A stretch of DNA of 64,000 nucleotides from Terracoccus sp. 273MFTsu3.1 (GTDB lineage: Bacteria > Actinomycetota > Actinomycetes > Actinomycetales > Dermatophilaceae). Positions 10,401 through 62,481 of this stretch are shown in pieces. A program made the translations under genes and the position numbers. Positions within the stretch are counted from its first letter, which is position 1. Each line of letters begins with the position of its first letter. The notes beneath the pieces were generated by a model that had not been told where the DNA came from, did not search any database, and worked only from the letters and a program-made list of their open reading frames with translations. The stretch spans positions 62,001 through 126,000 of the forward strand of contig NZ_KB911822.1 of the NCBI RefSeq assembly GCF_000383675.1, in the 5' to 3' direction.

Positions 10401-12458
10401 GTGAATCGACTGAAGTCTGGGCTGGCGACCGGAGGGCTGCTCGCCCTCGCCCTCGCCATCTCGCCGGCGATCCCGGCGGGCGCAGCGGCAGGTGCAGGAC
10501 GCGACAAGGCGCCTGCCCCCGAGTCGCAGAGCCTCAAGGCGACCGAGCAGTCCCGAGCAGCATCGTCCGCGAGCGCCCTCGGCCTCGCCTCGGGCGAGAA
10601 GCTCACCGTCAAGTCCGTCATCCAGGACGCCAACGGCGCGACGCACGTCCGCTACGAGCGGACCTTCGACGGCCTGCGCGTCATCGGCGGCGACTTCGTC
10701 AGCCACAAGGACTCCTCGGGTGCCGTCAAGAGCGTCACGTGGAACTACCGCAAGAACGTCACCCCCGCGACGATGACCCCGAGCGTCTCCAAGAGCGAGG
10801 CGCACCAGGCCGGTCTCGCCGCGTCGAAGGCCAACAAGGAGACCGCCACCCCCGGTGAGCTCGTCGTCTTCCAGTCGGCCACCGGTCCCAAGCTCGCCTA
10901 CGAGGTCATCACCGAGGGCATCAAGGCCGACCAGACCCCGACCCGCCTGCACACGATCGTCGACGCCACCACGGGCAAGACCCTGACGAGCTGGGACGAC
11001 ATCAAGCACGGCACGGGCAACGGCATCTTCGTCGGCTCCGTCACGCTCGGCACGACCGCCGGGACGACGTACACGATGAAGGACACCCACGGGAACTACA
11101 CGACCGACCTCAACCAGGCCACGAGCGGCAACGGCACGACGTTCACCGACGCCGACGACGTCTGGGGCAACGGCCTGCAGAGCAACCGCCAGTCGGCGGC
11201 CGTCGACGCGCACTACGGCGCCGGCAAGACGTACGACTACTACAACACCCAGCTCGGCCGCGCCGGCATCTGGAACAACGGCACCGGCGCCCGCAGCCGC
11301 GTCCACTACGGCCAGAACTACGTCAACGCCTTCTGGGACGGCACGCAGATGACGTACGGCGACGGCGCCAACAACGCGGCCCCGCTCGTCGAGCTCGACG
11401 TCGCCGGCCACGAGATGAGCCACGGCGTCACCGAGAACACCGCGGGCCTCGCCTACACCGGCGACGCCGGCGGCCTCAACGAGGCGACGTCGGACATCTT
11501 CGGCACGGGTGTGGAGTGGTACACGAACAACCCGAGCGACACCCCCGACTACCTCATCGGCGAAGAGATCAACATCAACGGCAACGGCACGCCGCTGCGC
11601 TACATGGACAAGCCGAGCAAGGACGGCGGCTCGAAGGACTGCTGGAGCAGCTCCCTCGGCGGCCTCGACCCGCACTACTCGTCCGGCCCGCTCAACCACT
11701 GGTACTTCCTGGCCTCCGAGGGTTCGGGTGCCAAGACGATCAACGGCGTCAGCTACAACAGCCCCACCTGTGACGCCTCGACGGTGACCGGCATCGGCCA
11801 CCTCAAGGTCGAGAAGATCTGGTACCGCACGCTGTCGACGTACCTCACCTCGAGCAGCAACTACGCGGCGGCCCGCACCGGCGTCATCAAGGCGGCCAAG
11901 GACCTCTACGGCGCCGGCTCGGCCGAGTGCACCGCGGTCGACAAGGCCATGGGCGCCATCTCGGCCCCGGCCAGCACCGAGACCTGCGGCACCGGCGGTG
12001 GCGGTGGCGGCGGCGCGGCCCTGACCAACGGCGGCTTCGAGTCCGGCCAGACCGGCTGGACCGGCACGACGGGCCCGATCACCAACAACACGGGCCGCCC
12101 GGCCCACGGCGGTTCGTACAAGCTGTGGCTCGGCGGCAACGGCACGGCCGGCTCCGAGAACGAGTCGCAGACCTTCGCCGTCCCGTCCACGGCCACCGCT
12201 CCGGCGCTGACCTACTGGATCCGCATCGACACGGCCGAGACCACGACGACGAGCGCCTACGACACGGCCACCGTCCAGATCAACGGCGTCACGAAGCAGA
12301 GCTACTCCAACCTGTCCACGCCGAAGGCGTCCTACGTCCAGAAGACGATCGACCTCACGGCCTACAAGGGCACGAACGTCACGCTGAAGTTCGCCGACAC
12401 CGAGGACTCCTCGCTCCAGACGAGCTTCGTCATCGACGACGTCGCGACGAACTTCTGA
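10401..12458 (+). CDS. Secreted M4-family (thermolysin-like) metallopeptidase
   Basis: 685 residues. A Sec signal peptide (MNRLKSG, then hydrophobic core, AGAAAG cleavage region) is followed by an FTP/PepSY-type propeptide (about 60-215). The M4 catalytic domain has HEMSH (His337-Glu338-His341) and, as expected, the third zinc ligand Glu361 in GGLNEATSD. After a glycine-rich linker (TGGGGGGGAA) comes a C-terminal beta-sandwich of about 150 residues beginning GFESGQTGWT, a carbohydrate- or surface-binding-like module. GTG at 10401 has AGGAG 6 nt upstream. It probably acts as an extracellular protease; the propeptide implies autoprocessing. Confidence 0.94.
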   Translation: MNRLKSGLATGGLLALALAISPAIPAGAAAGAGRDKAPAPESQSLKATEQSRAASSASALGLASGEKLTVKSVIQDANGATHVRYERTFDGLRVIGGDFVSHKDSSGAVKSVTWNYRKNVTPATMTPSVSKSEAHQAGLAASKANKETATPGELVVFQSATGPKLAYEVITEGIKADQTPTRLHTIVDATTGKTLTSWDDIKHGTGNGIFVGSVTLGTTAGTTYTMKDTHGNYTTDLNQATSGNGTTFTDADDVWGNGLQSNRQSAAVDAHYGAGKTYDYYNTQLGRAGIWNNGTGARSRVHYGQNYVNAFWDGTQMTYGDGANNAAPLVELDVAGHEMSHGVTENTAGLAYTGDAGGLNEATSDIFGTGVEWYTNNPSDTPDYLIGEEININGNGTPLRYMDKPSKDGGSKDCWSSSLGGLDPHYSSGPLNHWYFLASEGSGAKTINGVSYNSPTCDASTVTGIGHLKVEKIWYRTLSTYLTSSSNYAAARTGVIKAAKDLYGAGSAECTAVDKAMGAISAPASTETCGTGGGGGGGAALTNGGFESGQTGWTGTTGPITNNTGRPAHGGSYKLWLGGNGTAGSENESQTFAVPSTATAPALTYWIRIDTAETTTTSAYDTATVQINGVTKQSYSNLSTPKASYVQKTIDLTAYKGTNVTLKFADTEDSSLQTSFVIDDVATNF

Positions 12459-50513: not shown

Positions 50514-51455
50514 ATGGGAACCACGACCGCACGCCGTCACCGGACCGGAACCACCCACGGCCCGAGGTGGCTGACCGTCGTGGTCGCGATGGCGCTGGCA
50601 CCAGCCCTCGCGGGCTGCCCGTCCGGCTCCGCCGGTGCCGGTGACGGCGCCGTGACGACCGCGACCGTGCGAGCGACCTCGACCGTGCGAGCGACCCCGA
50701 CCCTCGAGCCCGAGCGTGACGTCGCCGTCGGCGACCGGCACTTCAAGGCGCGGTGCGCCGGCAGCGGTCCGTCGGTCGTCCTCGTGGCCGACTACGGACG
50801 GGCCATGGACGACGCGTGGGGCACGATCCCGCAGACCCTCGCGACGCGCGGCCGTGTCTGCGTCTACGACCGGCTCGGGGTCGGGCGGAGCGACTCGGTG
50901 CCCGACCGCCAGACCTTCGCGAGCCTCGCCGGCGACCTCGACGGTGTCATCTCGGGTCTCGGGCTGACGCGGCCCGTCGTCGTCCTGGGCGACTCCCTGG
51001 GGGCTCCGATCGCTCTGACGTGGACGAGCCGGCACGCGTCCGATGCCAAGGCCGTCGTCCTCCTCGACCCCGTCCCGCCGGGCTACTTCGGACCCACCGG
51101 TGCCCTGCTCCGGCTCCTGCCGCCGAAGGACCCGGGCGACCCGGAGCTGGGCGGCCTGTGGGCCGACCTCGACCGCTTCAACACGGTCGCGACGAACAGG
51201 GAGAGCCTCGACCCGGCCTCGTGGACGGCCTACGAACGGCTGCCGATGACGTCCACCCCGCTCTACGACCTGGTCCGGGCACAGGTGCAGCCGTGGCCGG
51301 CGGCGGTCGACGCCGACGCGATCGACGGTGTCTGGAGGCAGTACCAGCGGCGGGTGCTCGCGCTCTCGTCGCAGGCCGAGCTCCGGATCGTGCCGAAGCC
51401 CGACGACTGGCCGACGATGATCAGGAGCGCGCTCGAGCGCGCGCTGCAGTCATGA
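50514..51455 (+). CDS. Lipid-anchored alpha/beta hydrolase-like protein
   Basis: 313 residues. A lipoprotein signal (RWLTVVVAMALAPALAGCPSG) is followed by a Thr-rich linker with tandem ATVRATSTVRATPT. The alpha/beta hydrolase fold shows VVLVADYGRAMDDAWGTI, VCVYDRLGVGRSD and the nucleophile elbow VVLGDSLGAPIALTW (GDSLG). The C-terminal region (LSSQAELRIVPKPDDWPTMIRSALERAL) lacks the expected catalytic His, so activity is doubtful. ATG 50514 has GGAG 7 nt upstream. It overlaps the convergent kinase gene by 6 bp. Confidence 0.82.
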   Translation: MGTTTARRHRTGTTHGPRWLTVVVAMALAPALAGCPSGSAGAGDGAVTTATVRATSTVRATPTLEPERDVAVGDRHFKARCAGSGPSVVLVADYGRAMDDAWGTIPQTLATRGRVCVYDRLGVGRSDSVPDRQTFASLAGDLDGVISGLGLTRPVVVLGDSLGAPIALTWTSRHASDAKAVVLLDPVPPGYFGPTGALLRLLPPKDPGDPELGGLWADLDRFNTVATNRESLDPASWTAYERLPMTSTPLYDLVRAQVQPWPAAVDADAIDGVWRQYQRRVLALSSQAELRIVPKPDDWPTMIRSALERALQS

Positions 51456-52082
51456 CCGAGGACCGCCCGGCCCCACCACCCAGGCGCCGGCGTCGCCGCT
51501 GACCACGAGGTCGGCTCGCTGCCACGGTCGGTCGTCGGCGAGGAAGGGCTCCTCGGCCGTCATCCACTCATCCCAGAACCGCTCGGCCTCTGCTCGCGTG
51601 CGACCGAGCTCGACGTCGCGCCGGAGCCCGCGCTCGCGCGCCTCGTCGCGGTCGGCCTGCACCCAGACGACGACGTCGGCGTGGGTGGCCAGCGACGCGC
51701 GGCCGGCGCCGACCCCCTCGAGGACGAGCACGCGTACGCCCTCGGGGACGGTCACCGAGCCCTCGCGCCCCTGCGCGACCCAGCCCGGGGGGCGGTGGTC
51801 GACGGCCTCGCCGCGCCGCCACGGCCCGATGACGTGCTCGACGGCGAGGTCGTCCCACGCGATCGCGTCGTGGTGCCAGGCGAGGTCGTCGGTGTGGACG
51901 ACCGCACCGCCGAGGAGCGTTGCCGCTCGTTCGGCGAAGGTCGTCTTGCCCGACCCGGACCGGCCGTCGACGAGAAGCACGCCCCGCCCGCCGCTGAGCA
52001 GGCCGGTCAGCAGCCGGGCGAGGTCAGCGTCGTCGACGGGCCGCCACGGCCCCGCCTCGGTCTCCTCGGGGTGCAGTCGCAT
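51450..52082 (-). CDS. P-loop kinase-like protein (uridine-kinase fold)
   Basis: 210 residues. Walker A VDGRSGSGKTTFAERAATLL, a downstream substrate-region HTDDLAWHHDAIAWDDL, and VLVLEGVGAGRASLA match uridine kinase/AAA_18-type small P-loop kinases. Later VVWVQADRDEARERGLRRDVELGRTRAEAERFWDEWM is the lid-like helix. Substrate unknown. ATG 52082 has CATACT 6 nt upstream, itself part of a GGCATAC heptamer. Overlaps the hydrolase gene by 6 bp at the 3' end. Confidence 0.85.
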   Translation of the reverse strand: MRLHPEETEAGPWRPVDDADLARLLTGLLSGGRGVLLVDGRSGSGKTTFAERAATLLGGAVVHTDDLAWHHDAIAWDDLAVEHVIGPWRRGEAVDHRPPGWVAQGREGSVTVPEGVRVLVLEGVGAGRASLATHADVVVWVQADRDEARERGLRRDVELGRTRAEAERFWDEWMTAEEPFLADDRPWQRADLVVSGDAGAWVVGPGGPRS

Positions 52083-52088
52083 GGCGTG

Positions 52089-52141
52089 AGTATGCCGTCC
52101 GGTCGCGTCGCTCAGGGCCCGGTCGGCTGGAGCACTAGCGT
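52089..52141. promoter_or_regulatory. Divergent leaderless promoters (P-loop kinase / RidA)
   Basis: Reverse strand CATACT (52094-52089) lies 6 nt before the ATG at 52082. Forward strand TAGCGT (52136-52141) lies 7 nt before the ATG at 52149. Confidence 0.5.
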
Positions 52142-52148
52142 CCTGACC

Positions 52149-52562
52149 ATGAGCAGACCCACCAGCGCCGTCCGCCTCATCAGGGCCGCCGCGCTCACCG
52201 ACACCGCGCCCTACGCGTATGCCGCGACGACCGACGCCGCCGCCCCGCTCCTCTTCACGGCGGGAGCCTGTCCCCTCGACGAGTCCGGCGCGACCGTGGC
52301 ACCCGGCGACATCGCAGGCCAGGCCCGGCAGTGCGTGGACAACCTCGTGACTGCTCTCGATGCCGCCGGCGCGACGCTGGGCGACATCGCCTACACGCGC
52401 GTCCTCGTGGCGACGACCGTGCGGGAAGACCTCGTGGCGGCGTGGACCGTCGTCCACGACGCCTTCGGCGAGCACGAGGTGCCGAGCACCCTGCACGGCG
52501 TGACGGTCCTCGGCTACCCCGACCAGCTCGTGGAGATCGAGGCCGTCGCGGCGCTCAGGTAG
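52149..52562 (+). CDS. RidA family protein
   Basis: 137 residues of YjgF/YER057c/UK114 fold: [59 protein letters not shown], followed by the conserved Arg in AYTRVLVATTV, and the C-terminal PSTLHGVTVLGYPDQLVEIEAVA with Glu. Rid proteins deaminate reactive enamines from PLP enzymes. The trimer active-site Arg is present (RVLVATT), so deaminase function is plausible. Convergent with the VWA gene (8-bp overlap). Confidence 0.92.
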   Translation: MSRPTSAVRLIRAAALTDTAPYAYAATTDAAAPLLFTAGACPLDESGATVAPGDIAGQARQCVDNLVTALDAAGATLGDIAYTRVLVATTVREDLVAAWTVVHDAFGEHEVPSTLHGVTVLGYPDQLVEIEAVAALR

Positions 52563-53721
52563 CCGGCTCGGCCTCGTGGGTGGTGACGATGTCGTTGGCC
52601 GCGGCCCACGCCGTGATGTCGCGCTTCTCGATGGCCGTCGCCATGAGGTCGGGGAACTGGTCCGGAGTGCACGCGAACGCCGGCACCCCGACGGCCGCGA
52701 GGGCCGAGGCGTGGTCGGCGTCGAAGCTCGGCCGGCCCGAGTCGCTGAGCGCGAGCAGGGCGACCATGGTCGCGCCGGACGCGACGATGGAGGACGCGCG
52801 CCGGACCATCTCCTCGGCGATACCGCCCTCGTAGAGATCGCTGATGAGCACGAGGATCGTCTCGCCCGGCTGCTCGATGAGGCCCTCGCAGTAGGCGAGC
52901 GCCTGGTTGATGTCGGTGCCTCCGCCGAGCTGCACGCCGAAGAGCACGTCGACGGGGTCGTCGAGCTCGTCGGTGAGGTCGACGACCGCGGTGTCGAAGA
53001 CGACGAGGCGTGTCTCGACAGACCGGAGCGAGGCGAGCACCGCGCCGAAGACGCTGGAGTAGACGACGGACTCGGCCATCGAGCCGGACTGGTCGATGCA
53101 GAGGATGATCCGTCGCTCGACCCGGTGCGCCCGCCGGGCGTGGCCGACGAGCCGCTCGGGCACGACGGTGCCGTGCTCGGGCTGGTAGTGCTTGAGGTTG
53201 GCCGCGATGGTGCGGTTCCAGTCGATGTCTGACGCCTTGGGACGACGGGTGCGTGACGCCCGGTTGAGCGCGCCGGAGACGGCCTGCACCGTCTCCGAGC
53301 GCAGCCGCTCCTCGAGCTCGTCGGTGACGACGCGGACGACCGCCCGCGCCGTGGCGCGCGACCGCTCGGGGATGACGCGGCCCAGCCCGACGAGCGTCGT
53401 GACGAGGTTGACGTCGGGCTGCACGGCCTCCATCAGCTCGGGCTCGAGGAGCAGCTGGGTCAGGCCGAGGCGGTCCATCGCGTCGTGCTGCATGACCTGC
53501 ACGACCGACGACGGGAAGTAGCCACGGATGTCGCCGAGCCAGCGTGCGACGCGGGGCGCCGACGCCCCCAGTCCGCTGCGGCGCTCGCCGTCGTAGAGCT
53601 CGCGCAGGGCCTCGTCGCGCTTGAGGTCGTCGGCGTCGAGGCTCGCGCCATCGCCGATGCCGTCGGACTGCTCGCCACCGAGGACGAGCCGCCAGCGGGT
53701 GAGCCGGTCGCGGTCGGTCAC
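52555..53721 (-). CDS. VWA-domain protein of the MoxR/SWIM operon (YehP-like)
   Basis: 388 residues. The N-terminal ~200 residues are helical (LMEAVQPDVNLVTTLVGLGRVIPERSRATARAVVRVV). A VWA domain follows with the MIDAS motif D210-Q-S212-G-S214 (IILCIDQSGSMAESV), the Thr of LGGGTDINQAL and Asp in LISDLYEGG. GTG 53721 overlaps the stop of the DUF5682 gene by 4 bp. VWA proteins beside MoxR ATPases act as adaptors or metal-ion sensors that couple ATP hydrolysis to a target. E. coli YehP has a similar length and domain. Last gene of the five-gene operon. Confidence 0.9.
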   Translation of the reverse strand: MTDRDRLTRWRLVLGGEQSDGIGDGASLDADDLKRDEALRELYDGERRSGLGASAPRVARWLGDIRGYFPSSVVQVMQHDAMDRLGLTQLLLEPELMEAVQPDVNLVTTLVGLGRVIPERSRATARAVVRVVTDELEERLRSETVQAVSGALNRASRTRRPKASDIDWNRTIAANLKHYQPEHGTVVPERLVGHARRAHRVERRIILCIDQSGSMAESVVYSSVFGAVLASLRSVETRLVVFDTAVVDLTDELDDPVDVLFGVQLGGGTDINQALAYCEGLIEQPGETILVLISDLYEGGIAEEMVRRASSIVASGATMVALLALSDSGRPSFDADHASALAAVGVPAFACTPDQFPDLMATAIEKRDITAWAAANDIVTTHEAEPAT

Positions 53722-55943
53722 GACGCCACCTCCATCCCGAGCAACCGGGCGACCGCGGCGATCGCTGGTGCGGCCCGGTCGAGGTCGATCGAGTCGGTCG
53801 ACGACGGGGCCGTGTGCCTGCCGCTCGCGAGGTCGCGCAGGTGCGTCCCGATGAGGCGGCGTTCGGCGGGCTGGTAGCGCGAGAAGGTGCGGCGCACGAG
53901 GGGCAGGAGGTCCTCGAAGGCCTCCTCGGACGCGCCGACGAGCCATTCGTCGATGATCGAGAGCAGGTCGTCGCCGTGGACGAGGAGCAGCGCCTCGCCG
54001 GTGAGGAAGCCGTCGAGCCAGGCGGCGGCAGCAGGGGCCGGGGTGCCGGGGGAGAGCCGGCGGCTCAGGCGCGCGGCCGCCTCGTCGTGGGTGAGGTGCC
54101 CACCGTCGAGCAGCAGCCGGTTGACGCGTCCGGCGACGGCGCCGTGGATGACCTCGTCGCGACCGACGGTCACGAGTGCCTCGGTCCACGGGTCGCGCAG
54201 GTCGTCGCGGTCGACGAGCGCCACTCCGCGGTGCGCCGCCTCGAGGGCGGCACGCATGGCGGCCGCGCTGTCGTCGTCGAGGCTCGAGCACGCGGCGCGG
54301 AGCCCGACGGACGCGCGCACGACGACGGTCTGGAGCACGTGCGCCACGTCGGCCACGTCGACCCCGCGCACGTCGCCGTAGCGGCACGTCCGCGCGAGCG
54401 GCTCGACGGTCTCGAGCAGGGCTTGGGTGTCGTGCTGCCGAGCCGTGCGCTCGGCCAGCGCGGCCACGACGGCGCGCAGTCCCTCCGGCAGGTCGGCGAC
54501 CAGGCACTCCTCGATGAGCCTCCCGAGGACGCGGAGGTCGGCCGCCTCCCGCGCCTCCTCGGCGATGCGGGACTCGGCGGCGCTGCGGACCGTCGTGCCG
54601 TGGAGGCTCGCCTCGATGACGGCTACCGCGAGCTCGGGTGTCCACTCGAGCTCCCACGCCTCCTTGAAGGTGCCCGTCGTGCGTCCGGCGTCGACCTGCG
54701 TGCCCCACGGGACGTCGAGGACGGCGAGTCGGTGCAGCAGCACCGACCGGGCGAGCTGGGACTCGCGGCGCAGGTCGAGCTGCACGACCGTCGAGGTGGC
54801 CGACGCCTTGAGCCGCAGGGTCCTCTGCTGCTTCGCGAGGTCGCCGGCCAGCGGCACCATCGGGGTCGACTCGGGCACCCGCCCGAGCAGCTCACCGATG
54901 ACGAGGGTGCGGTCGACGAGCCGCAGGGGCAGGTCGGATCCCTCCGTGAGGACCGCGCGGGCGGCATCGGTCAGCTCGGCCAGCCCGACCGAGGGCCGGC
55001 CCCGAACGGCGGCCAGCGCGCCTGCGAGACGGGTCGCCTCGACGACCGATGCGGTCGAGGCGTCGAGGTCCTCGCTGCGCAGGGCCCGTGCGACGCGGAC
55101 GAACCACGACGGCACGACCTCGTCGTCGGGGGTGACGAAGAGGTGGTGGTACCACCCGGGCGAGCGGACCCCGGCGCCGTAGCCGCTGGCATACGACAGG
55201 CGCTCGGAGCTCCACGGAGCCCACGTCGCGGCGACCTTGATCTTCGGCAGCCTGCTCGTGAGCGCGTTGTCACGGCTGACCGGCGGGAACGCCGCGGGGT
55301 CGAGAGCCGGGGCGTGGTAGGCGCCGCACACGACGGCGACGCGCTCGCGTCCGCCGCGCATCTCGGCGCGGATCACCTTGCGCATGAAGGCCTCTCGGCG
55401 CGCATCGTCATCGACCTCGAGGTCGCCGCGGACTCCTTCCATCGCCTCGCGGAGGTGGGCGAAGTGGGTGAGGGACGACGTGCGGCGGTGCTCGACCGCG
55501 TCTTCCCACCACCGCTCGGGGTCGTCGTATCCGGCAGCCGACGCGAGGGCCGAGATGGGGTCGACGCGACGGCGCGGCCGACGCGGAGGGTCCTCTGCCT
55601 CGGCGTCGGCGAGGTGGTGCGTCGCGGGCAGGTCGGCGAAGCGCACGTCGACCCCGTGCTCGAGCGCCCACCGCAGTGCCACCCACTCCGGCGAGAAGAC
55701 GGCGAACGGGTAGAACGCAGCCCGCCTCGGCTCGTCGACCGCGTAGACGAGTCCGGCCACGGGTGGCACGAGGTCGGGGTCGGCGGCGAGCGGGACGAGC
55801 GCGTCGAGCTCGGGGGGCCCTTCGATGACGACGACGTCGGGCTGCAGCTCCTCGAGGGCGCGCCCGACGGACCGCGCGGAGCCCGGACCGTGGTGCCGGA
55901 CGCCGAGCACCTCGACGCGCACGTCCACGCCTCGAACGCTCAC
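53718..55943 (-). CDS. DUF5682 family protein (YehM-like)
   Basis: 741 residues. The N-terminal ~250 residues show VLGVRHHGPGSARSVGRALEELQPDVVVIEGPPELDALVPL, then ALEHGVDVRFADLP and VAVVCGAYHAPALDPAAF. The G-x-x-H...E...G-x-x-H arrangement resembles TraB/TIKI/ChaN-type hydrolase cores, an inference from pattern only. The remaining ~480 residues are helical (VVVRASVGLRAACSSL, LLVHGDDLLSIIDEWL). GTG 55943 follows the MoxR stop by 4 nt. Coupled to the VWA gene downstream. Family function is unknown to me. Confidence 0.88.
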   Translation of the reverse strand: MSVRGVDVRVEVLGVRHHGPGSARSVGRALEELQPDVVVIEGPPELDALVPLAADPDLVPPVAGLVYAVDEPRRAAFYPFAVFSPEWVALRWALEHGVDVRFADLPATHHLADAEAEDPPRRPRRRVDPISALASAAGYDDPERWWEDAVEHRRTSSLTHFAHLREAMEGVRGDLEVDDDARREAFMRKVIRAEMRGGRERVAVVCGAYHAPALDPAAFPPVSRDNALTSRLPKIKVAATWAPWSSERLSYASGYGAGVRSPGWYHHLFVTPDDEVVPSWFVRVARALRSEDLDASTASVVEATRLAGALAAVRGRPSVGLAELTDAARAVLTEGSDLPLRLVDRTLVIGELLGRVPESTPMVPLAGDLAKQQRTLRLKASATSTVVQLDLRRESQLARSVLLHRLAVLDVPWGTQVDAGRTTGTFKEAWELEWTPELAVAVIEASLHGTTVRSAAESRIAEEAREAADLRVLGRLIEECLVADLPEGLRAVVAALAERTARQHDTQALLETVEPLARTCRYGDVRGVDVADVAHVLQTVVVRASVGLRAACSSLDDDSAAAMRAALEAAHRGVALVDRDDLRDPWTEALVTVGRDEVIHGAVAGRVNRLLLDGGHLTHDEAAARLSRRLSPGTPAPAAAAWLDGFLTGEALLLVHGDDLLSIIDEWLVGASEEAFEDLLPLVRRTFSRYQPAERRLIGTHLRDLASGRHTAPSSTDSIDLDRAAPAIAAVARLLGMEVAS

Positions 55944-55947
55944 GGGC

Positions 55948-57045
55948 TCAGCCGAGCTCGCGGCACGCGCGGTAGAGGTCGGTCCACTCCGAGCGGTCCT
56001 TGACGACGGTCTCGAGGTACTCCTGCCAGACGATGCGGTCCTGGACCGGGTCCTTGACGACCGCACCGACGAGGCCGGCCGCGACGTCGTCGGCCCGGAC
56101 GACGCCGTCGCCGAAGTGGGACGCGAGCGACAACCCGTTGGTCATGACGGAGATGGCCTCGGCGGTCGACAGGGTCGCCGACGGCGACTTGACCGTGGTC
56201 CGCTGGTCCGCGGTGACCCCCGAGCGCAGCTCGCGGAAGATCGTGACGACACGCTCGATCTCGGCGAGGGACTCGAGGCCGGGCGGCAGCTCGAGCGAGC
56301 GCCCGAGCGAGTCGACGCGGGTGCGGACGATCTCGACCTCCTGCGCGAGGGTGTCGGGCAGCGGCAGCACGAGGGTGTTGAAGCGGCGCTTGAGGGCCGA
56401 CGAGAGGTCGTTGACCCCCTTGTCGCGGTTGTTGGCGGTGGCGATGACGTTGAAGCCCTGCTGCGCCTGCACCTCGGAGTCGAGCTCGGGGATCGGCAGG
56501 TGCTTCTCCGACAGGATCGTGATGAGGGCGTCCTGGACGTCGGCCGGGATGCGGGTCAGCTCCTCGATGCGCACGAGGGTGCCCGTCTCCATGGCTCGCA
56601 TGACCGGGCTCGGCACGAGCGCGCCGCGCGTCGGTCCCTCGGCGAGCAGCCGCGCGTAGTTCCAGCCGTAGCGCAGCGACTCCTCGGGCGTGCCCGCCGT
56701 GCCCTGGACGACGAGCGTCGACGAGCCGCTGACGGCGGCCGCGAGGTGCTCGCTGACCCAGGTCTTGGCCGTGCCCGGGACGCCCAGGAGCAGCAGGGCC
56801 CGGTCGGTGGCGAGGGAGGCGACGGCGACCTCCATGAGCCGTCGCGACCCGAGGTACTTCGGCGTGATCTCGGTGCCGTCGTCGAGCGTGCCGCCGAGGA
56901 GATAGGTCGTGACGGCCCACGGCGACAGCCGCCAGCGCGGCGGCCGGGGCCGGTCGTCGGAGGCGGCGAGGGCGGCCAGCTCGGCGGCATACGCGTCCTC
57001 GGCGTGGGCGCGCAGGACCGTGGTGGGAGAGAGTGGTTCGCTCAT
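55948..57045 (-). CDS. MoxR-type AAA+ ATPase (YehL-like)
   Basis: 365 residues. Walker A ALLLLGVPGTAKTWVSEHLAAAV (Lys94), Walker B TLVRIEELTRIPADVQDALI, sensor 1 GFNVIATANNRDKGVNDLS, Arg finger ALKRRFNTLVLPLP, and a C-terminal lid (SPSATLSTAEAISVMTNGLSLASHFGDG) fit AAA_5/MoxR. It should form a hexamer that remodels a partner, probably through the VWA protein two genes downstream. ATG 57045 overlaps the DUF5691 stop by 4 bp. Length close to E. coli YehL as I recall it. Confidence 0.92.
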   Translation of the reverse strand: MSEPLSPTTVLRAHAEDAYAAELAALAASDDRPRPPRWRLSPWAVTTYLLGGTLDDGTEITPKYLGSRRLMEVAVASLATDRALLLLGVPGTAKTWVSEHLAAAVSGSSTLVVQGTAGTPEESLRYGWNYARLLAEGPTRGALVPSPVMRAMETGTLVRIEELTRIPADVQDALITILSEKHLPIPELDSEVQAQQGFNVIATANNRDKGVNDLSSALKRRFNTLVLPLPDTLAQEVEIVRTRVDSLGRSLELPPGLESLAEIERVVTIFRELRSGVTADQRTTVKSPSATLSTAEAISVMTNGLSLASHFGDGVVRADDVAAGLVGAVVKDPVQDRIVWQEYLETVVKDRSEWTDLYRACRELG

Positions 57046-58562
57046 CTGAAGGCCTCGGTGATCGATCGCTTGACGGAGTGGAACTGGAGCAGGTTGCGCA
57101 GGTTGGTCGTCAACGTCTGGTCGGCGCCGGTGGACTCGAGCCAGCGCTCGACCTCGTCGAGCGCGGCGGGGTGCAGCCCGGCGACAAGGTAGGGCATCGT
57201 CGCCACGACGATCGCCGAGCCCTGGGGTGCAGCACGTAGCCGGGACACGAGCGCGACGCTGTAGTCCGCCGACCACGGGGGCTCGACGGCTGCGATGACG
57301 GCGGCTGCGTGGTGGGGCCTGGTGCTCGTCGCGTCGATGCGCTTCAGCACGGCTCGCTCACGCAGCTCGCGCGGGAGGGCGGGCACGAGCGTCGGGTCCC
57401 AGCCGCCGTCGAGCAGGGCGGCCGCCCACTCGGGGTCGCGTCGGACTCGCGCGGCACGGCGTATGCCGGCCAGGGCGTCCGTCGCCTGCGCGTCGGTGAG
57501 GCGCTTGACCGTCGCCACCGGACCGGCGCCGGTCAGCTCGGCCCAGAGCTCCAGCGAGGCGCCGGCGCAGAGCTGCTCGAGCCACCAGCCGCGGGCGGAG
57601 CGGCGCGGCGGGGGCTTGCCGAGGCCGTCGCGCACGGCGTCCGGGTCGGGCTCGTCGGGCAGGGTCACCTCGACGGCGCGACCGAGCAGGCCGCTGCGCC
57701 GCACGAGGGGTCGCAGCCGGGCGGCCATGCGGGCGGCCCGGGCCGATCCCGGGAGGGCGTCGAGCAGCTCGGCCGCCAGCTCACGGACGCTCGCGGCCCG
57801 GTCGTCGAGAGCCTCCTCGAGGAGCGGCTCGTCGTCGGGGCCGAGGGCGATGCGCAGCACGTCGAGGTGTGCCCGACGATCGCGTGCCGCGTCGGTCGCC
57901 CAGGTGGAGCGGACGAGCTCGCGTGCCGCTGCCGGATCGTGGGCCCGGACACTCGCGAGCACGCTGACCCGGTCGGTCGAGGGCAGACGGGCCCAGTCGT
58001 CGGCCGGGGGCGCGGTGCCCGTCCTGCGCGACGCGGTGCGGGCCTCGGCGCCCGCAGAGGCGTCGGCGACCCACGACCACTCCTCGCGCAGCCCCGCCAG
58101 CCACCGGCCCCGCTCGTCGAGCACCGCGGCCGTCGGGCGGCGCAGCTCGCGCACGCCGGTGGCGAGCCCGAGCACGGTCGGCAGCAGGGCGTGCGGCACC
58201 CGACAGCCGGCGTCGTCGGCGGCACCCAGCCAGTGCGCGAGCAGGGCGCTGCGCTGCTGGGCCCCGGCCGGGGGCTGGGTCATGACGAGCTCGAGCAGCT
58301 GGACGGCCCGGCGCGGAGCGACGGGGCGGTGGTCGTCGGGGGCGGCCTCCGGTGGCTCGGCGTGGCCGAGTCGGCGCCCCGCGCGCACGGCCGCGCCACC
58401 CAGCGCCGCGGCGTCGAGGAGGGCCTCCTCGCGGGAGGACTCACCGGAACGTCCCAGGACGCCGGCGCGCCCGAGGTCGGGCAGCGGGGGCGCCGGCCTG
58501 CGCGCCGTGCCCAGCAGCGCGGCGTTGCCGACGTCGCGCCACCACGTGTCGAGGTCGCTCAC
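57042..58562 (-). CDS. DUF5691 family protein with HEAT-like repeats
   Basis: 506 residues. N-terminal WWRDVGNAALLGTARRPAPPLP, then repeating helical pairs of HEAT type, the clearest being LGPDDEPLLEEALDDRAASVRELAAELLDALPGSARAARM. The C-terminal part has RDPEWAAALLDGGWDPTLVPALPRELRERAVL and GLHPAALDEVERWLESTGADQTLTTNLRNLLQFHSVKRSI. No catalytic motif is seen, so it probably is a scaffold within the complex. GTG 58562 overlaps the SWIM gene stop by 4 bp; its own stop overlaps the MoxR start. The longer open frame above 58562 is not homologous. Confidence 0.86.
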   Translation of the reverse strand: MSDLDTWWRDVGNAALLGTARRPAPPLPDLGRAGVLGRSGESSREEALLDAAALGGAAVRAGRRLGHAEPPEAAPDDHRPVAPRRAVQLLELVMTQPPAGAQQRSALLAHWLGAADDAGCRVPHALLPTVLGLATGVRELRRPTAAVLDERGRWLAGLREEWSWVADASAGAEARTASRRTGTAPPADDWARLPSTDRVSVLASVRAHDPAAARELVRSTWATDAARDRRAHLDVLRIALGPDDEPLLEEALDDRAASVRELAAELLDALPGSARAARMAARLRPLVRRSGLLGRAVEVTLPDEPDPDAVRDGLGKPPPRRSARGWWLEQLCAGASLELWAELTGAGPVATVKRLTDAQATDALAGIRRAARVRRDPEWAAALLDGGWDPTLVPALPRELRERAVLKRIDATSTRPHHAAAVIAAVEPPWSADYSVALVSRLRAAPQGSAIVVATMPYLVAGLHPAALDEVERWLESTGADQTLTTNLRNLLQFHSVKRSITEAFR

Positions 58563-59866
58563 AGCCCGACCACCTCGCCGTCGAGCACGACGGTGAGCGG
58601 CCGCAGGCGGGTCTCCTCGAGCTCGCCGAAGACGCGCGCCGGCCCTCCGCCGGTCAGGGCGAGCAGCGACCACACGTCGGCGTCGTCGGTCAGGGGGACG
58701 CTCGCACCGTCCGCGTCGACGACCCGGTCGACGCCGACGCGCACGTCCGACAGGACGACGGGGATGCGGCGCGCCCACGGGTTGCGGCCCCACGTCTCGG
58801 CCGCCGCCGACCGCGCGTCCTCGAGGGACACACCGGACGGCATACGCACCTCGCCGTCGGAGACGGTGGGCTCGTCGACGAAGAGGGCCCGCCGCACGGC
58901 GGCGCCGGGGTAGCGGGCCAGCGTCGCGTCGAGTCCGGAGCCGACGATGCGCGCGACCGGCAGCACCTGGCCTCCGGCCGCGAAGTCGAGCACCTGCACC
59001 GTCTCACCCGTGGCGCTCCCGCGCAGCCACGTGCGCTGCTGCTGGAGGCGGCCGTCGTCGGTGCGGTGCGCGCCGAGGACGAGCCAACGATCGGTCACTG
59101 CGTCGCCCTGACGCACCGACTCGGTGCTCGTCGACCAGCCGAGGTAGGCGCGCAGGTCGCCGAGCCGCGCCTCGTCGAGGGACTCGCGTGCGGACCAGGC
59201 CCGGGTGGCGGTCCACCAGCGACCGAGCGCGACGAGCAGGCGCTCGGCCCAGTCGGGGCGTCCGGTCACCGCGCCGCCGACGGAGCGCACGTCGTCGGCG
59301 AGCCCGGGCAGGTGCGCGTCGACGAGGCGCGCGGCCGTGGCGTCCCACCACGCGTAGGACTGGTGCCTGGCGGCTGCCGTGCCGCTGCGCGCGAGGTCGG
59401 TGAGCCACCGCGCGAAGTCGTCCATGCCGTCGTCCATGAGAGCGAGCCGCTCCGCGAGGCGCTTCGCCGCGGCCGCGGGGTCGGGGGTCCTCGCCGGGCG
59501 AGCGGTGTCCCCGGCCGCCTTGGCCTCGGCCCGGGCGGAGCGCTCGGCCGCCCACTCCTGGGCGAACCCGGCCACCTCGGTCGCATCGGCGACCGACCCC
59601 GACCCGTCGACCCAGAGCAGCAGGAGCGCGAGCCCGTGCTTGCACGGGAACTTGCGGCTCGGGCACGAGCACCGGAACGCGGGCCCGGTGAGGTCGATGC
59701 TCACCTGGTAGGGCGTCTTGCCCGACCCTTGGCACTTGCCCCAGAGCAACGTCTCGGTGGAGCCGGTGTCGGACCACGGCCCGGGGCGCGCGAGCCTCCG
59801 GGCAGCGGCCAGCGACGAGGCGTCGGGAGCCAGACCGGCCACCTGCTGGGAAGTCCATCGCGTCAT
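58559..59866 (-). CDS. SWIM zinc-finger protein (YehQ-like)
   Basis: 435 residues. SWIM motif CxC-x(n)-CxH: C66-S-C68...C75-K-H77 within FRCSCPSRKFPCKHGLALLLLW, preceded by the typical LLWGKCQGSGKTPYQVSIDLTG strand region. SWIM domains bind DNA or proteins. The rest is helical (RLAERLALMDDGMDDFARWLTDLARSG; DAHLPGLADDVRSVGGAV) with a beta-rich C-terminal region. ATG 59866 is chosen as start; a GTG nine bases upstream is in frame. First gene of the operon, 84 bp after a BldC-like gene on the same strand. Confidence 0.9.
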   Translation of the reverse strand: MTRWTSQQVAGLAPDASSLAAARRLARPGPWSDTGSTETLLWGKCQGSGKTPYQVSIDLTGPAFRCSCPSRKFPCKHGLALLLLWVDGSGSVADATEVAGFAQEWAAERSARAEAKAAGDTARPARTPDPAAAAKRLAERLALMDDGMDDFARWLTDLARSGTAAARHQSYAWWDATAARLVDAHLPGLADDVRSVGGAVTGRPDWAERLLVALGRWWTATRAWSARESLDEARLGDLRAYLGWSTSTESVRQGDAVTDRWLVLGAHRTDDGRLQQQRTWLRGSATGETVQVLDFAAGGQVLPVARIVGSGLDATLARYPGAAVRRALFVDEPTVSDGEVRMPSGVSLEDARSAAAETWGRNPWARRIPVVLSDVRVGVDRVVDADGASVPLTDDADVWSLLALTGGGPARVFGELEETRLRPLTVVLDGEVVGL

Positions 59867-59950: not shown

Positions 59951-60205
59951 TCAGGCGTCGCCGGCCGAGCTGCGGGTGCGGTCGGCGTCACCCTCGCGGA
60001 CGAGCCGCTCCAGGTGCGCCATGACGCTGGCGCGGTCGAACCGCCGGTGACCGCCCGGCGTCCGGGTCGAGGCCAGCAGGCCCACCCGGGCCCAGCGGGT
60101 GATGGTGGCCGGGGAGACCCGGAAGATCCGGGCAACCTCGTGCGGAGCCATGAGCTCCCGGTCCTCGCCGTCGTGTCCGCGGCCGGATGAGTGTGCTTTC
60201 GCCAT
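59951..60205 (-). CDS. BldC-like MerR-type DNA-binding protein
   Basis: 84 residues. A single winged helix-turn-helix: ELMAPHEVARIFRVSPATITRWARVGLLASTRTPGGHRRFDRASVMAHLERLV, very close to BldC/MerR-like regulators of actinobacteria. BldC-type proteins bind DNA repeats cooperatively in head-to-tail fashion. ATG 60205 has a GGGGG-type site upstream and a TATGTT -10 at about 60261. Reading in the same direction 84 bp upstream of the SWIM operon suggests it may regulate or be cotranscribed with it. Confidence 0.9.
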   Translation of the reverse strand: MAKAHSSGRGHDGEDRELMAPHEVARIFRVSPATITRWARVGLLASTRTPGGHRRFDRASVMAHLERLVREGDADRTRSSAGDA

Positions 60206-60260
60206 GGTGCTGCCCCCGTGTCCCCTGTGCGCCGCGTCCCCCGACGCGCGATCGACCACA

Positions 60261-60266
60261 ACATAC
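60261..60266 (-). promoter_or_regulatory. Candidate -10 (TATGTT) of the BldC-like gene
   Basis: Reverse-strand TATGTT at 60266-60261 would start transcription near 60254, giving a ~49-nt leader. It may serve the whole BldC-SWIM-VWA series. Confidence 0.35.
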
Positions 60267-60300
60267 CCACCTTCGCTGCCGTCAGTCGACGAACCGGGCT

Positions 60301-62481
60301 TCACAGCCTGACGCCGGAGGCCTCGAGCAGGTAGGCGAGGTCGGGGGCGAGCTGACGGGCGTACTGCAACGACGTGTGGAGGTAGTCGCCCTTGAGCACC
60401 GTCCCGGTCGTCGTCGTGAAGATGGGGCACCGCCCGTCGACGCAGTACCAGTGGGTCGTGTCGACGAAGACGGCGTGCTGCACCTTCTTCTCGACGTCAC
60501 GCGTTCGCGCCCACCACGTCGGGATGCCGGTGACGCACCGTCCCGGCGACCCGCCCGGCCGGTAGCAGTCGAGGAACGCGACGCCGGGCATCGAGGGCGC
60601 GACGATGACGACGGTGCCGACGCTCCCGCGCACCGCGTCGACGAACGCCTGGTCGGCGGCCAGCCACTCCTTCGCCGAGGCCGCGCCCTTCGCGTGGGAC
60701 TTGAGGCGAACGGCCCACGAGTACGTCTCGGTCATGATGAGGACCTTCGGCTTCACCCGCCGCACGTAGTCGAGCACCATCTTCCGGTGGTCGACGCAGG
60801 GGAGCGCCCACTCGTCCTTGCCGTAGTTCGCGTCGACGCCGTTGACGGCACAGGCGATCTTCGTCATGCCGCGCACCGTGTAGGTCCTGCCGAAGGCCTC
60901 CTCGACCGTCGCGAGGAGCGGGAAGCCGATGGAGTCGCCGTAGACGATGATCTCGGGACCGGCGCGGTTGCCGAAGGTGCACGACTCGGGGTCCTCGGCG
61001 TCGGTCGCCGTGCAGGCGCTCATCGCGGCGCGCTGGTCGGCGGTCGTCTGCCACTGGTCGGGTGAGGGGTTGAGGTCGGCCGGCCACGACCCCGACGCGA
61101 GGGCGCCGCGGAGTCCCTCCTGGATGCGGGTTCCGCTGGCGCCCAGTGGGATCGGCCTCCAGCTCGTGCCCGGCACCGCGGACCTCGTGCGGGTCGTCGG
61201 GGAGGTCGGAAGGGTGGGCGTCGCCTCGGGGTTCGGGGCCGTCGGCGCGGGCACCTCGCCCTCCGGAGGCGGGACGGCGCCGTCCGGGTCGTCGGCCGCG
61301 ACGACGGTGCCACCCGCGAAGAGGTCGGGCCGGGCCGTGGCGGTCCCGCCGACCCCGACGACGAGGAGCGCGAGCGCCAGGGCGGCGGCCAGCATGCTGC
61401 GCCTCCGGACCCGTGGCGCGTCGAGGACCGGTCGCTCGACGAGGTGGTGCGACACGACAGCCAGAACGAGGGTCCCGGCCAGGACGACGGCTGCGCTCGT
61501 CGCACCTGTGCTCGTGAGCACGACCGGGGCGAGCACGACGAGCGGGAAGTGCCAGAGGTAGAGCCCGTAGGAGACGTCGCCGACGTAGCCGCTCACCGGG
61601 TTCGTCAGCAGCACCGCTCCCGGTGCGGGCGCACCGATCCCGGCGACGAGCACGAGCACCGTCCCGAGCGCGACCCCGAGCGCCGCCGGCCAGGGGACGC
61701 CCGTGTCCGGCGTGACGAGGACGTATGCCGTCAGGACCGTCGCGAGCCCCGCCCAGGACAGCGCGGAGCGGGCCGCGGGAGCCAGGCGGACGGCAGCCCG
61801 GGGCACGGTGGCGAGCGCGGCGCCGAGCGCGAGCTCCCACGCGCGGGTCAGCGTCGAGTAGTAGGCGGTCGTCGGGTCCGAGGAGGTCGAGGCGGCCGCC
61901 CACACGAGGGATGCAGCCCCGACGGTGGCGGCGAGGGCGCCGATCGCCACCCGGTGCCGGCGCCCACCACCGGCGACGGCGACGACGAGCACGACGAGCA
62001 GCGGCCACGCGACGTAGAACTGCTCCTCGACCCCGAGTGACCAGTAGTGCAGGAGCGGCGAGGGCGCCGACCCGGTGTCGAAGTACGTGTCGGCGCGGGC
62101 GGCATAGTGCCAGTTGGCGGCGAAGAGCGCGGCCCACAGCGCGTCGCTGCGGATCGAGGCGACCTTGGCCCCGGCCCAGGCCCAGGGTGCGATGACGACG
62201 ACGGCGGCGATGACGAGCAGCGCGAGGGGCAGGATCCGTCGAGCCCGACGGATCCAGAAGTCGCGCAACGAGATCCGTCCGGTGCGGTCGCGCTCGCGGA
62301 CGAGCACCCCGGTGATGACGAAGCCGGACACGACGAAGAAGGCGTCGACACCGAGGTAGCCGCCGCTCGGCCAGCCGAAGAGGTGGAAGGCGATGACGGC
62401 GGTCACGGTCACGGCCCTGAGGCCCTGGATGTCCGCCCTACGCGGTCCCCCCACCGGACCGTCGCTCATGCGGGACAGCAT
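60301..62481 (-). CDS. Membrane acyltransferase-SGNH fusion (OafA-like)
   Basis: 726 residues. Acyltransferase-3 part with about ten TM helices: RADIQGLRAVTVTAVIAFHLFG, GGYLGVDAFFVVSGFVITGVL, DFWIRRARRILPLALLV, LHYWSLGVEEQFYVAWPLL and GDVSYGLYLWHFPLVVL. After a Pro/Thr linker comes an SGNH-type domain with VYGDSIGFPLL, containing several Cys and KGDYLHTSLQYARQL near the end. It probably O-acylates a wall or exported polymer. Start ATG 62481 (GGAGG 12 nt upstream) or 62469; it overlaps the MFS gene. Similar design to 31540-33546. Confidence 0.92.
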   Translation of the reverse strand: MLSRMSDGPVGGPRRADIQGLRAVTVTAVIAFHLFGWPSGGYLGVDAFFVVSGFVITGVLVRERDRTGRISLRDFWIRRARRILPLALLVIAAVVVIAPWAWAGAKVASIRSDALWAALFAANWHYAARADTYFDTGSAPSPLLHYWSLGVEEQFYVAWPLLVVLVVAVAGGGRRHRVAIGALAATVGAASLVWAAASTSSDPTTAYYSTLTRAWELALGAALATVPRAAVRLAPAARSALSWAGLATVLTAYVLVTPDTGVPWPAALGVALGTVLVLVAGIGAPAPGAVLLTNPVSGYVGDVSYGLYLWHFPLVVLAPVVLTSTGATSAAVVLAGTLVLAVVSHHLVERPVLDAPRVRRRSMLAAALALALLVVGVGGTATARPDLFAGGTVVAADDPDGAVPPPEGEVPAPTAPNPEATPTLPTSPTTRTRSAVPGTSWRPIPLGASGTRIQEGLRGALASGSWPADLNPSPDQWQTTADQRAAMSACTATDAEDPESCTFGNRAGPEIIVYGDSIGFPLLATVEEAFGRTYTVRGMTKIACAVNGVDANYGKDEWALPCVDHRKMVLDYVRRVKPKVLIMTETYSWAVRLKSHAKGAASAKEWLAADQAFVDAVRGSVGTVVIVAPSMPGVAFLDCYRPGGSPGRCVTGIPTWWARTRDVEKKVQHAVFVDTTHWYCVDGRCPIFTTTTGTVLKGDYLHTSLQYARQLAPDLAYLLEASGVRL

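Follow-up and report, generated by a model that had tools for sequence, protein, structure and literature searches.

A five-gene operon with a YehL-type MoxR ATPase

The reverse strand of a 64,000-nucleotide stretch of the Terracoccus sp. 273MFTsu3.1 genome (contig NZ_KB911822.1, positions 62,001 to 126,000; here called the window, in whose numbering all positions are given) encodes five closely packed genes between positions 52555 and 59866. In order of transcription, their products are a SWIM zinc-finger protein of 435 amino acids (58559..59866; PF04434, 25.2 bits against a cut-off of 19.6), a DUF5691 protein of 506 amino acids (57042..58562; PF18944, E 1.2e-106), a MoxR-type AAA+ ATPase of the YehL type with 365 amino acids (55948..57045; AAA_5, PF07728, E 1.9e-37), a DUF5682 protein of 741 amino acids (53718..55943; PF18934, E 1.8e-247), and a CoxE-type VWA protein of 388 amino acids (52555..53721; VWA_CoxE, PF05762, E 1.7e-52, 178.5 bits against a cut-off of 26.4). 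All five frames were open, and each product was above its Pfam cut-off in a scan of the window proteins. Spacings of -4, -4, +4, and -4 nucleotides between successive genes had been given in a preliminary description of this DNA, and re-measurement gave identical values. The Terracoccus genome contained one DUF5691 match and one DUF5682 match, and the nearest named DUF5682 relative among the fetched loci was from Humibacillus xanthopallidus (90% identity).

The Walker A motif of the MoxR protein, GVPGTAKT (residues 88-95, 56761..56784, reverse strand like all features of the operon), had its G, P, G, T, A, and K conserved in all 84 aligned proteins, as were the sensor ATAN and RRF motifs. The Walker B motif (RxEE, residues 157-164, 56554..56577; R, E, E, and T in 84 of 84) departs from the canonical MoxR Asp-Glu in having a Glu for the usual Asp, so that the window protein and every family member in the alignment contain Glu-Glu. 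Asp-Glu was present in all eight comparators, namely seven other AAA_3-matching frames from the same genome and Escherichia coli RavA, whereas the Glu-Glu form is shared by E. coli YehL. The AAA_5 core with its Walker A, sensor 1, and Arg finger, the full conservation of these motifs, 40% identity to YehL, and a VWA partner with a metal ion-dependent adhesion site (MIDAS) place the window protein in the YehL subfamily, which has been listed as one of seven MoxR subfamilies (PMC3893208).

The MIDAS of the VWA protein, DQSGS (residues 210-214, 53080..53094), is intact, as previously described, both in the window sequence and across the alignment: D, Q, and both S residues were found in 84 of 84 proteins and G in 82, while the later D and T of the site were found in 84 and 82, respectively. 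The zinc-binding motif of the SWIM protein, CSCPSRKFPCKH (residues 66-77, 59636..59671), has the form CxC...CxH, and its four ligands were present in all 69 aligned proteins. DUF5691 is predicted to be a HEAT/ARM-like helical repeat. Its AlphaFold2 model (predicted local distance difference test, pLDDT, 92.4; predicted template modelling score, pTM, 0.81) was all-helical but for short strands, and the Foldseek matches shown for it were by title mostly helical-repeat proteins, with none at E ≤ 0.001.

Conservation of the module and its two classes

A genome collection was scanned with a ten-sequence DUF5682 alignment, which confirmed at least 586 relatives, and the best 80 loci were kept for analysis, so distant relatives are under-represented. 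By record title, these loci came from Actinomycetota, Cyanobacteria, Planctomycetes, Proteobacteria, Chloroflexi, and Melainabacteria. Our own profiles of the five families, of which the SWIM profile was seeded with both of the classes described below, were run against the loci, and flanking genes were called with a simple codon-usage script.

All five genes were present in 67 of the 80 loci. They were collinear in 57 of these, and in ten more the SWIM and DUF5691 genes were divergent (one of the ten with an extra weak SWIM match). Nine of the other 13 loci were at contig ends (L100, L104, L113, L125, L135, L150, L162, L166, and L167), two (L129 and L142) had no DUF5691 match in a gap big enough for one, and the last two, from cyanobacteria, are considered with the proposed mechanism. 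In 75 of the 80 loci, the core genes MoxR, DUF5682, and VWA were all present and followed one another in this order. The earlier reading of the genes as a system around MoxR and VWA is supported by this conservation. Weak family matches at L173 and L188 proved on reading by eye to be unrelated genes and were set aside.

Within the Actinomycetota, DUF5682 was found in 24 of 396 genomes, the Terracoccus genome included. The 21 genomes among these 396 that contained DUF5691 at E < 1e-15 were all DUF5682-positive, a co-occurrence far beyond chance; DUF5691 also had six matches of lower significance (E 1e-4 to 8e-4), all in genomes without DUF5682. Rare co-occurrence of the families had been named at the outset as the result that would speak against a system, and the opposite was found. 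DUF5682 was also present in 12 of 299 Pseudomonadota genomes, counting the one at the centre of that comparison. Closer to Terracoccus, it was found in seven of the eight genus relatives searched (the eighth genome is 74% complete), in one of 27 other genomes of the family, and in one of 22 others of the order. The DUF5682 gene of the module was present in 97 of 101 Streptomyces genomes, and yehM was present in 5284 of 5426 E. coli genomes, with coverage of at least 80% in 5166.

Pairwise distances of the five families were correlated over 58 loci (r 0.81-0.92, a comparison made without an outside control gene), which fits joint inheritance, with shared host ancestry also contributing. Median identity was highest for MoxR (0.73) and lowest for DUF5691 (0.31). 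Taken with their co-occurrence, the five genes almost certainly form one functional module.

The preliminary description had given E. coli yehL-yehM-yehP-yehQ as having the same components. This was correct for MoxR, DUF5682, VWA, and SWIM, but not for DUF5691, in whose place the E. coli genes have DUF4132 (YehI). YehL, YehM, and YehP are 40%, 28%, and 36% identical to the window MoxR, DUF5682, and VWA proteins and are encoded in the same order. However, the DUF4132 gene is upstream and the SWIM gene is last in E. coli, while the SWIM gene is first in the window, and YehQ (614 amino acids) had no significant pairwise similarity to the window SWIM protein (best E 2.6). In the window, the Pfam scan and our own profiles gave no DUF4132 match, and the SWIM and DUF5691 genes come first. 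The possibility that DUF5691 is a relative of DUF4132 was rejected, as the profile comparison gave only 0.3%. The gene set is thus a variant of the YehL kind, and two classes can be distinguished. Class A, the window type, was also found in Deinococcus, Hymenobacter, Methylosinus, and Rhizobium. Class B, the yeh type, keeps MoxR, DUF5682, and VWA together with DUF4132 and another SWIM protein; the order was DUF4132, MoxR, DUF5682, VWA, SWIM in Iodobacter and also in E. coli, where the small yehK is interposed, and in Sinorhizobium and Allorhizobium DUF4132 sits between DUF5682 and VWA.

Gene fusions were found at several loci. DUF5682 and VWA were in one open frame at seven (L048, L073, L075-L078, and L089), six of them in Streptomyces, and the L048 fusion is annotated as a single coding sequence in Streptomyces atratus. 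SWIM and DUF5691 were in one frame at L044, L067, and L083. These pairings suggest two direct contacts, DUF5682 with VWA and SWIM with DUF5691. At the Methylosinus trichosporium OB3b locus (L045), the VWA profile matched three overlapping frames at 11172-12397 while the other four genes were intact; the annotation table, itself incomplete, has no gene for this stretch. An E. coli plasmid typed as conjugative, with IncF replicons (L047, NZ_CP103756.1), bears the yeh region from yehI to mlrA near an IS26-family transposase gene.

In Deinococcus radiodurans, the DUF4132 operon drA0165-drA0166 is reported to rise strongly on depletion of the DNA-damage repressor DdrO, and MolR has been described as a member of the LexA regulon (PMC8533742). 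A YehI search of the plasmid collection gave 19 records, none from Deinococcus. SOS control of the module was considered and rejected: no match to CTGT-N8-ACAG (exact) or to the longer LexA consensus with up to three mismatches was found in 25 kb of E. coli sequence that includes the yeh genes, and GAAC-N4-GTTC had no match upstream of 72 loci (0.5 expected). MolR is presumably encoded in the yeh region, and the LexA patterns tried there do not bear out such control. The pattern CGAACNNNNGTTCG with one mismatch had one match in the window, at 60642, inside the neighbouring acyltransferase frame (3.2 expected).

The predicted fold of DUF5682 and its putative active site

The DUF5682 protein is predicted to have two parts, an N-terminal alpha/beta domain (about residues 1-250) of the TraB/TIKI/ChaN type and a helical C-terminal region. 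The motif of the TIKI superfamily has the form GxxH, and two such motifs are found in the window protein, G14-V-R-H17 (55893..55904) and G207-A-Y-H210 (55314..55325), together with a conserved Glu, E41, in the sequence IEGP (55821..55823). The ten-member alignment contained G14-x-x-H17, E41, S84-P85-E86, D104, R183-E184, M187, and G207-x-x-H210. In two larger sets, of 65 and 27 sequences, H17, E41, S84, E86, D104, R183, E184, M187, G207, and H210 were invariant; the sets together contain 91 distinct sequences, as L174 duplicates one of the 65 (L179 is 97.7% identical to another). G14 was kept in 64 of the 65 sequences, with Pro in the other one, and was Pro in eight of the 27 further copies, mostly divergent ones; P85 was replaced by Ala in two of the 27. 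In the divergent Actinomycetota copies L081 and L082, PxxH and SAE replace GxxH and SPE. In the TIKI superfamily, the core is a parallel sheet and the active-site residues are His and Glu (PMC6254334), and the invariant GxxH/Glu set of DUF5682 looks like an active site.

Profile comparison by hhalign with cleaned profiles aligned the DUF5682 N-terminal domain with TraB at 63.8% over 39 columns that included the first GxxH and the Glu, and with ChaN at 10.1% over 170 columns that included both GxxH motifs and the Glu. By comparison, 15 control pairs, which used the DUF5682 C-terminal part and four partner families, gave 0.1-2.2%, and the known families among themselves gave 92.3% (TraB-ChaN), 92.8% (ChaN-Ere), and 0.6% (TraB-Ere). 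The observed score was reached by none of 120 column shuffles for TraB, none of 120 for ChaN, and four of 120 for Ere, and the reversed profile scored below the observed one in each case (TraB, 23.2 versus 38.8; Ere, 12.8 versus 22.6; ChaN, 20.8 versus 29.5). A first hhalign run had given 99.5% for the N-terminal domain against TraB and was discarded as an artefact, since the C-terminal control scored 99.0%. In DUF5682, the two GxxH motifs and the Glu behind the second strand match the ChaN register throughout, and the first half of the set matches that of TraB. The protein differs from the TraB/PrgY, ChaN, and Ere families in being longer, with a large helical C-terminal region and a MoxR-VWA partner.

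In the AlphaFold2 model of DUF5682, built from 56 sequences (pLDDT 90.5, pTM 0.85), H17 follows strand one, E41 follows strand two, and G207 and H210 end a late strand that precedes the long helical region, an order of strands and helices that fits a TraB-type fold. When the whole model was compared with a viral fold library, the first match was a marseillevirus TraB family protein (Foldseek probability 1.00, E 7.2e-3). Among PDB sequences, the DUF5682 profile had no match at E ≤ 10.

Several results speak against this assignment. The single hhalign profile probabilities were modest, and the comparison with Ere gave only 1.3% over 34 columns, although the RxxxM helix and last His of Ere were in register with DUF5682. 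The reversed TraB score (23.2, 2.8%) was higher than the shuffle maximum of 20.8, so the shuffles understate the noise. Foldseek searches of the PDB and viral libraries returned nothing at E ≤ 0.001, and no TraB/TIKI-type chain was recognized by title in 50 of the 714 PDB matches to the whole model, perhaps because the helical part dominates a whole-model search. A Pfam scan of 56 members had no TraB, ChaN, or Ere among the 25 of 27 families listed. Even so, the N-terminal domain is considered likely to have the TraB/TIKI/ChaN fold. This fold with its two GxxH motifs and Glu would make DUF5682 probably a hydrolase, a prediction that is rated below the fold assignment itself; no hydrolytic activity is known.

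Possible functions of the module

In loci that we take to belong to the Streptomycetaceae and Catenulispora, the module lay between a B12-binding mutase-subunit gene (17 loci) and sucC and sucD (19 loci each). In Streptomyces coelicolor, SCO4800 is isobutyryl-CoA mutase (PMC6629963) and SCO4808/SCO4809 are the succinyl-CoA synthetase subunits (PMC8981147). SCO4804 lies in the same slot; it is reported to have 815 amino acids and to be separated from the adjacent genes by 103 bp and 171 bp (PMC8120823), and the DUF5682 lengths and gaps in 13 Streptomycetaceae loci span all three values, so SCO4804 appears to be the Streptomyces DUF5682 protein. With respect to SCO4801-SCO4805, the Streptomyces loci differ from the window in having the SWIM and DUF5691 genes on the opposite strand. 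A Tn5 insertion in sco4804 is reported to lower topA promoter activity and TopA level, as well as sco4805 transcription; overexpression of SCO4804 briefly raised the topA and gyrB transcripts, and depletion of TopA raised sco4804 eightfold and adjacent genes as well (PMC8120823). The available text of that study calls the proteins of the region hypothetical and does not name their families.

It is proposed that the operon encodes one machine. The VWA protein would hold DUF5682 directly and couple it to the MoxR ring, whose use of ATP would open DUF5682 or drive its loading onto or unloading from a client. As the predicted hydrolase, DUF5682 would resemble a peptidase or an esterase, might depend on a metal, and would have a helical arm. 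The SWIM protein and the helical-repeat DUF5691 protein would pair up as well, most likely to recognize the client or to serve as a scaffold, and in the E. coli-type class their place would be taken by DUF4132 and a different SWIM protein. Rather than belonging to a phage, the client is probably one of the host's own physiological proteins, with a part in stress, the nucleoid, or transcription, since nearly all Streptomyces and E. coli genomes have the module and a Streptomyces homologue affects topA/gyrB transcription indirectly. As a mechanism for the module, a MoxR-controlled hydrolase is advanced tentatively and falls just short of being probable. The more specific version, in which a cytosolic protease or esterase with the TraB/TIKI fold is activated by the MoxR motor and VWA adaptor and aimed by the SWIM and helical-repeat proteins at a regulator with feedback on DNA supercoiling, is unlikely as it stands. 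If a switched TraB/TIKI-fold hydrolase of this sort were confirmed, it would explain SCO4804 and yehLMPQ together and would be, to our knowledge, the first energy-gated hydrolase of the TIKI type.

Other observations fit the proposed machine less well. The change from Asp to Glu in Walker B means that ATP turnover by the MoxR protein is not assured. In the cyanobacterial loci L102 and L114, DUF5682 was found without MoxR, VWA, or SWIM neighbours though the flanks were in view, and in these species it may act alone or with genes elsewhere. In L081 and L082, VWA comes before MoxR. The link between SCO4804 and DUF5682 is drawn from gene position and protein size and does not use the SCO4804 sequence. 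Since the sco4804 insertion also lowers sco4805 transcription, the next gene, which is the VWA gene by position, may be responsible for the phenotype through a polar effect.

Other functions for the MoxR-VWA pair were weighed against the controlled hydrolase. As a chaperone, MoxR and its CoxE-type VWA partner would remodel a client enzyme to let a metal centre or cofactor be inserted, and DUF5682 would be a TraB-like binding partner and not a hydrolase. CoxD-CoxE and Mg-chelatase are described as MoxR-vWA metal-insertion machines (PMC7159879), the window VWA protein matches VWA_CoxE, and the Pfam name of ChaN, Cofac_haem_bdg, implies that some members of the superfamily bind cofactors. In addition, yehM was mutated in copper-evolved E. 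coli lines (PMC12409786), and a DUF4132 protein may take part in molybdopterin biosynthesis (PMC8533742). The B12-binding neighbour points the same way, but its confinement to Streptomycetaceae and Catenulispora means that it may be mere synteny. Recurrent flanking families were clustered over 75 loci and identified in part, and no molybdenum or copper enzyme was recognized among the 25 of 174 near-flank Pfam families listed. The invariant residues of DUF5682 also have the look of an active site, and a chaperone is considered rather unlikely.

SWIM domains can bind nucleic acid, and the module could instead regulate transcription or chromosome topology, with the SWIM protein, DUF5682, or both binding DNA and adjusting topoisomerase expression, and MoxR-VWA remodelling the complex. 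The effects of disruption and overexpression of SCO4804 and of TopA depletion favour such a role, as do possible DNA-binding regions predicted by sequence tools in SCO4803, SCO4804, and SCO4805 (PMC8120823). However, the same study reports that DNA binding by purified SCO4804 was non-specific and was removed by competitor, that there was no direct TopA contact, and that overexpression left plasmid supercoiling unchanged, and its authors call the effect indirect. Neither DUF5682 Foldseek list had a match at E ≤ 0.001, DNA-binding or other. The topA effect and this non-specific binding are the only hint of nucleic-acid action by the module, which the preliminary description had raised as a possibility, and a regulator of transcription or topology is judged quite unlikely.

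A role in conflict, anti-phage or other, was also considered, in which MoxR-VWA would act as the switch between a SWIM/DUF5691 sensor and a DUF5682 effector. Pairs of MoxR and vWA do the switching in ternary conflict systems with beta-propeller or iSTAND components, which likewise combine MoxR and vWA with partners (PMC7159879); the main text of that paper contains no mention of SWIM, YehL, TIKI, or TraB. The patchy distribution in the Actinomycetota and Pseudomonadota genomes counted above is in keeping with such a role, as are relatives in 36 plasmid-collection records, some of them chromosome-sized, and one relative (L049) beside restriction-modification genes. However, the bpMoxR model scored 19.8 bits in the window, under its cut-off of 27, and the five window proteins gave only weak PADLOC matches to ATPases, at E 0.005 or worse. 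Enrichment in defence islands, named in the preliminary description as a thing to check, was not borne out by PADLOC scans of flanking genes from 44 loci chosen one per genus. For the near flanks, 132 of 163 genes from 37 loci were scanned, and for the far flanks 137 of 243 genes from 25 loci. The near flanks matched 69 defence models (of the 25 listed, mad2 had three members and the others one each), and the far flanks matched 93 (the 25 listed had three members each and were nearly all UvrD-type), so there was no excess of defence families near the module. Two scans of viral contigs for a few short patterns found no relative, and presence in nearly all Streptomyces and E. coli genomes is unlike typical variable defence genes. 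These data indicate that a defence role is not supported, and it is regarded as very unlikely.

MoxR-VWA machines elsewhere act on metal centres, respiration, and immunity. The E. coli RavA-ViaA pair, in which a MoxR AAA+ protein is likewise encoded beside a VWA partner, differs from the window genes in that the fetched stretch contains no DUF5682, RavA has only a weak 41-residue match to the window MoxR (E 0.007), and its Walker B keeps the Asp. In the literature searched, no assigned function was found for the YehL branch and no mention was found of DUF5682 or DUF5691. The present analysis divides this branch in two, proposes an active site for DUF5682, its constant partner, and ties the branch to a published Streptomyces phenotype of hypothetical proteins. 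What is considered new, with caution, is the division into two classes, the assignment of DUF5682 to the TraB/TIKI fold, and the connection to SCO4804. E. coli K-12 has one class and S. coelicolor very probably has the other, so the question of function can be answered in standard strains.

A gene for a MerR/BldC-type helix-turn-helix protein (59951..60430, reverse strand, true start uncertain; PF00376, E 4e-10; PF12728, E 5.7e-10) lies 84 nucleotides upstream of the SWIM start, as had been noted for a BldC-like regulator, but its membership in the system was rejected. The gene adjoins the module in five of seven loci of the genus, a sixth has a match about 1.5 kb off, the seventh has none, and only weak distant matches were found outside the genus, making it a genus-level neighbour. 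Downstream of the operon, window positions 51450-52496 encode a kinase-like P-loop protein. The upstream neighbour at 60301-62481 is an acyltransferase-SGNH protein, and an acyltransferase-SGNH gene likewise adjoins the module in Humibacillus.

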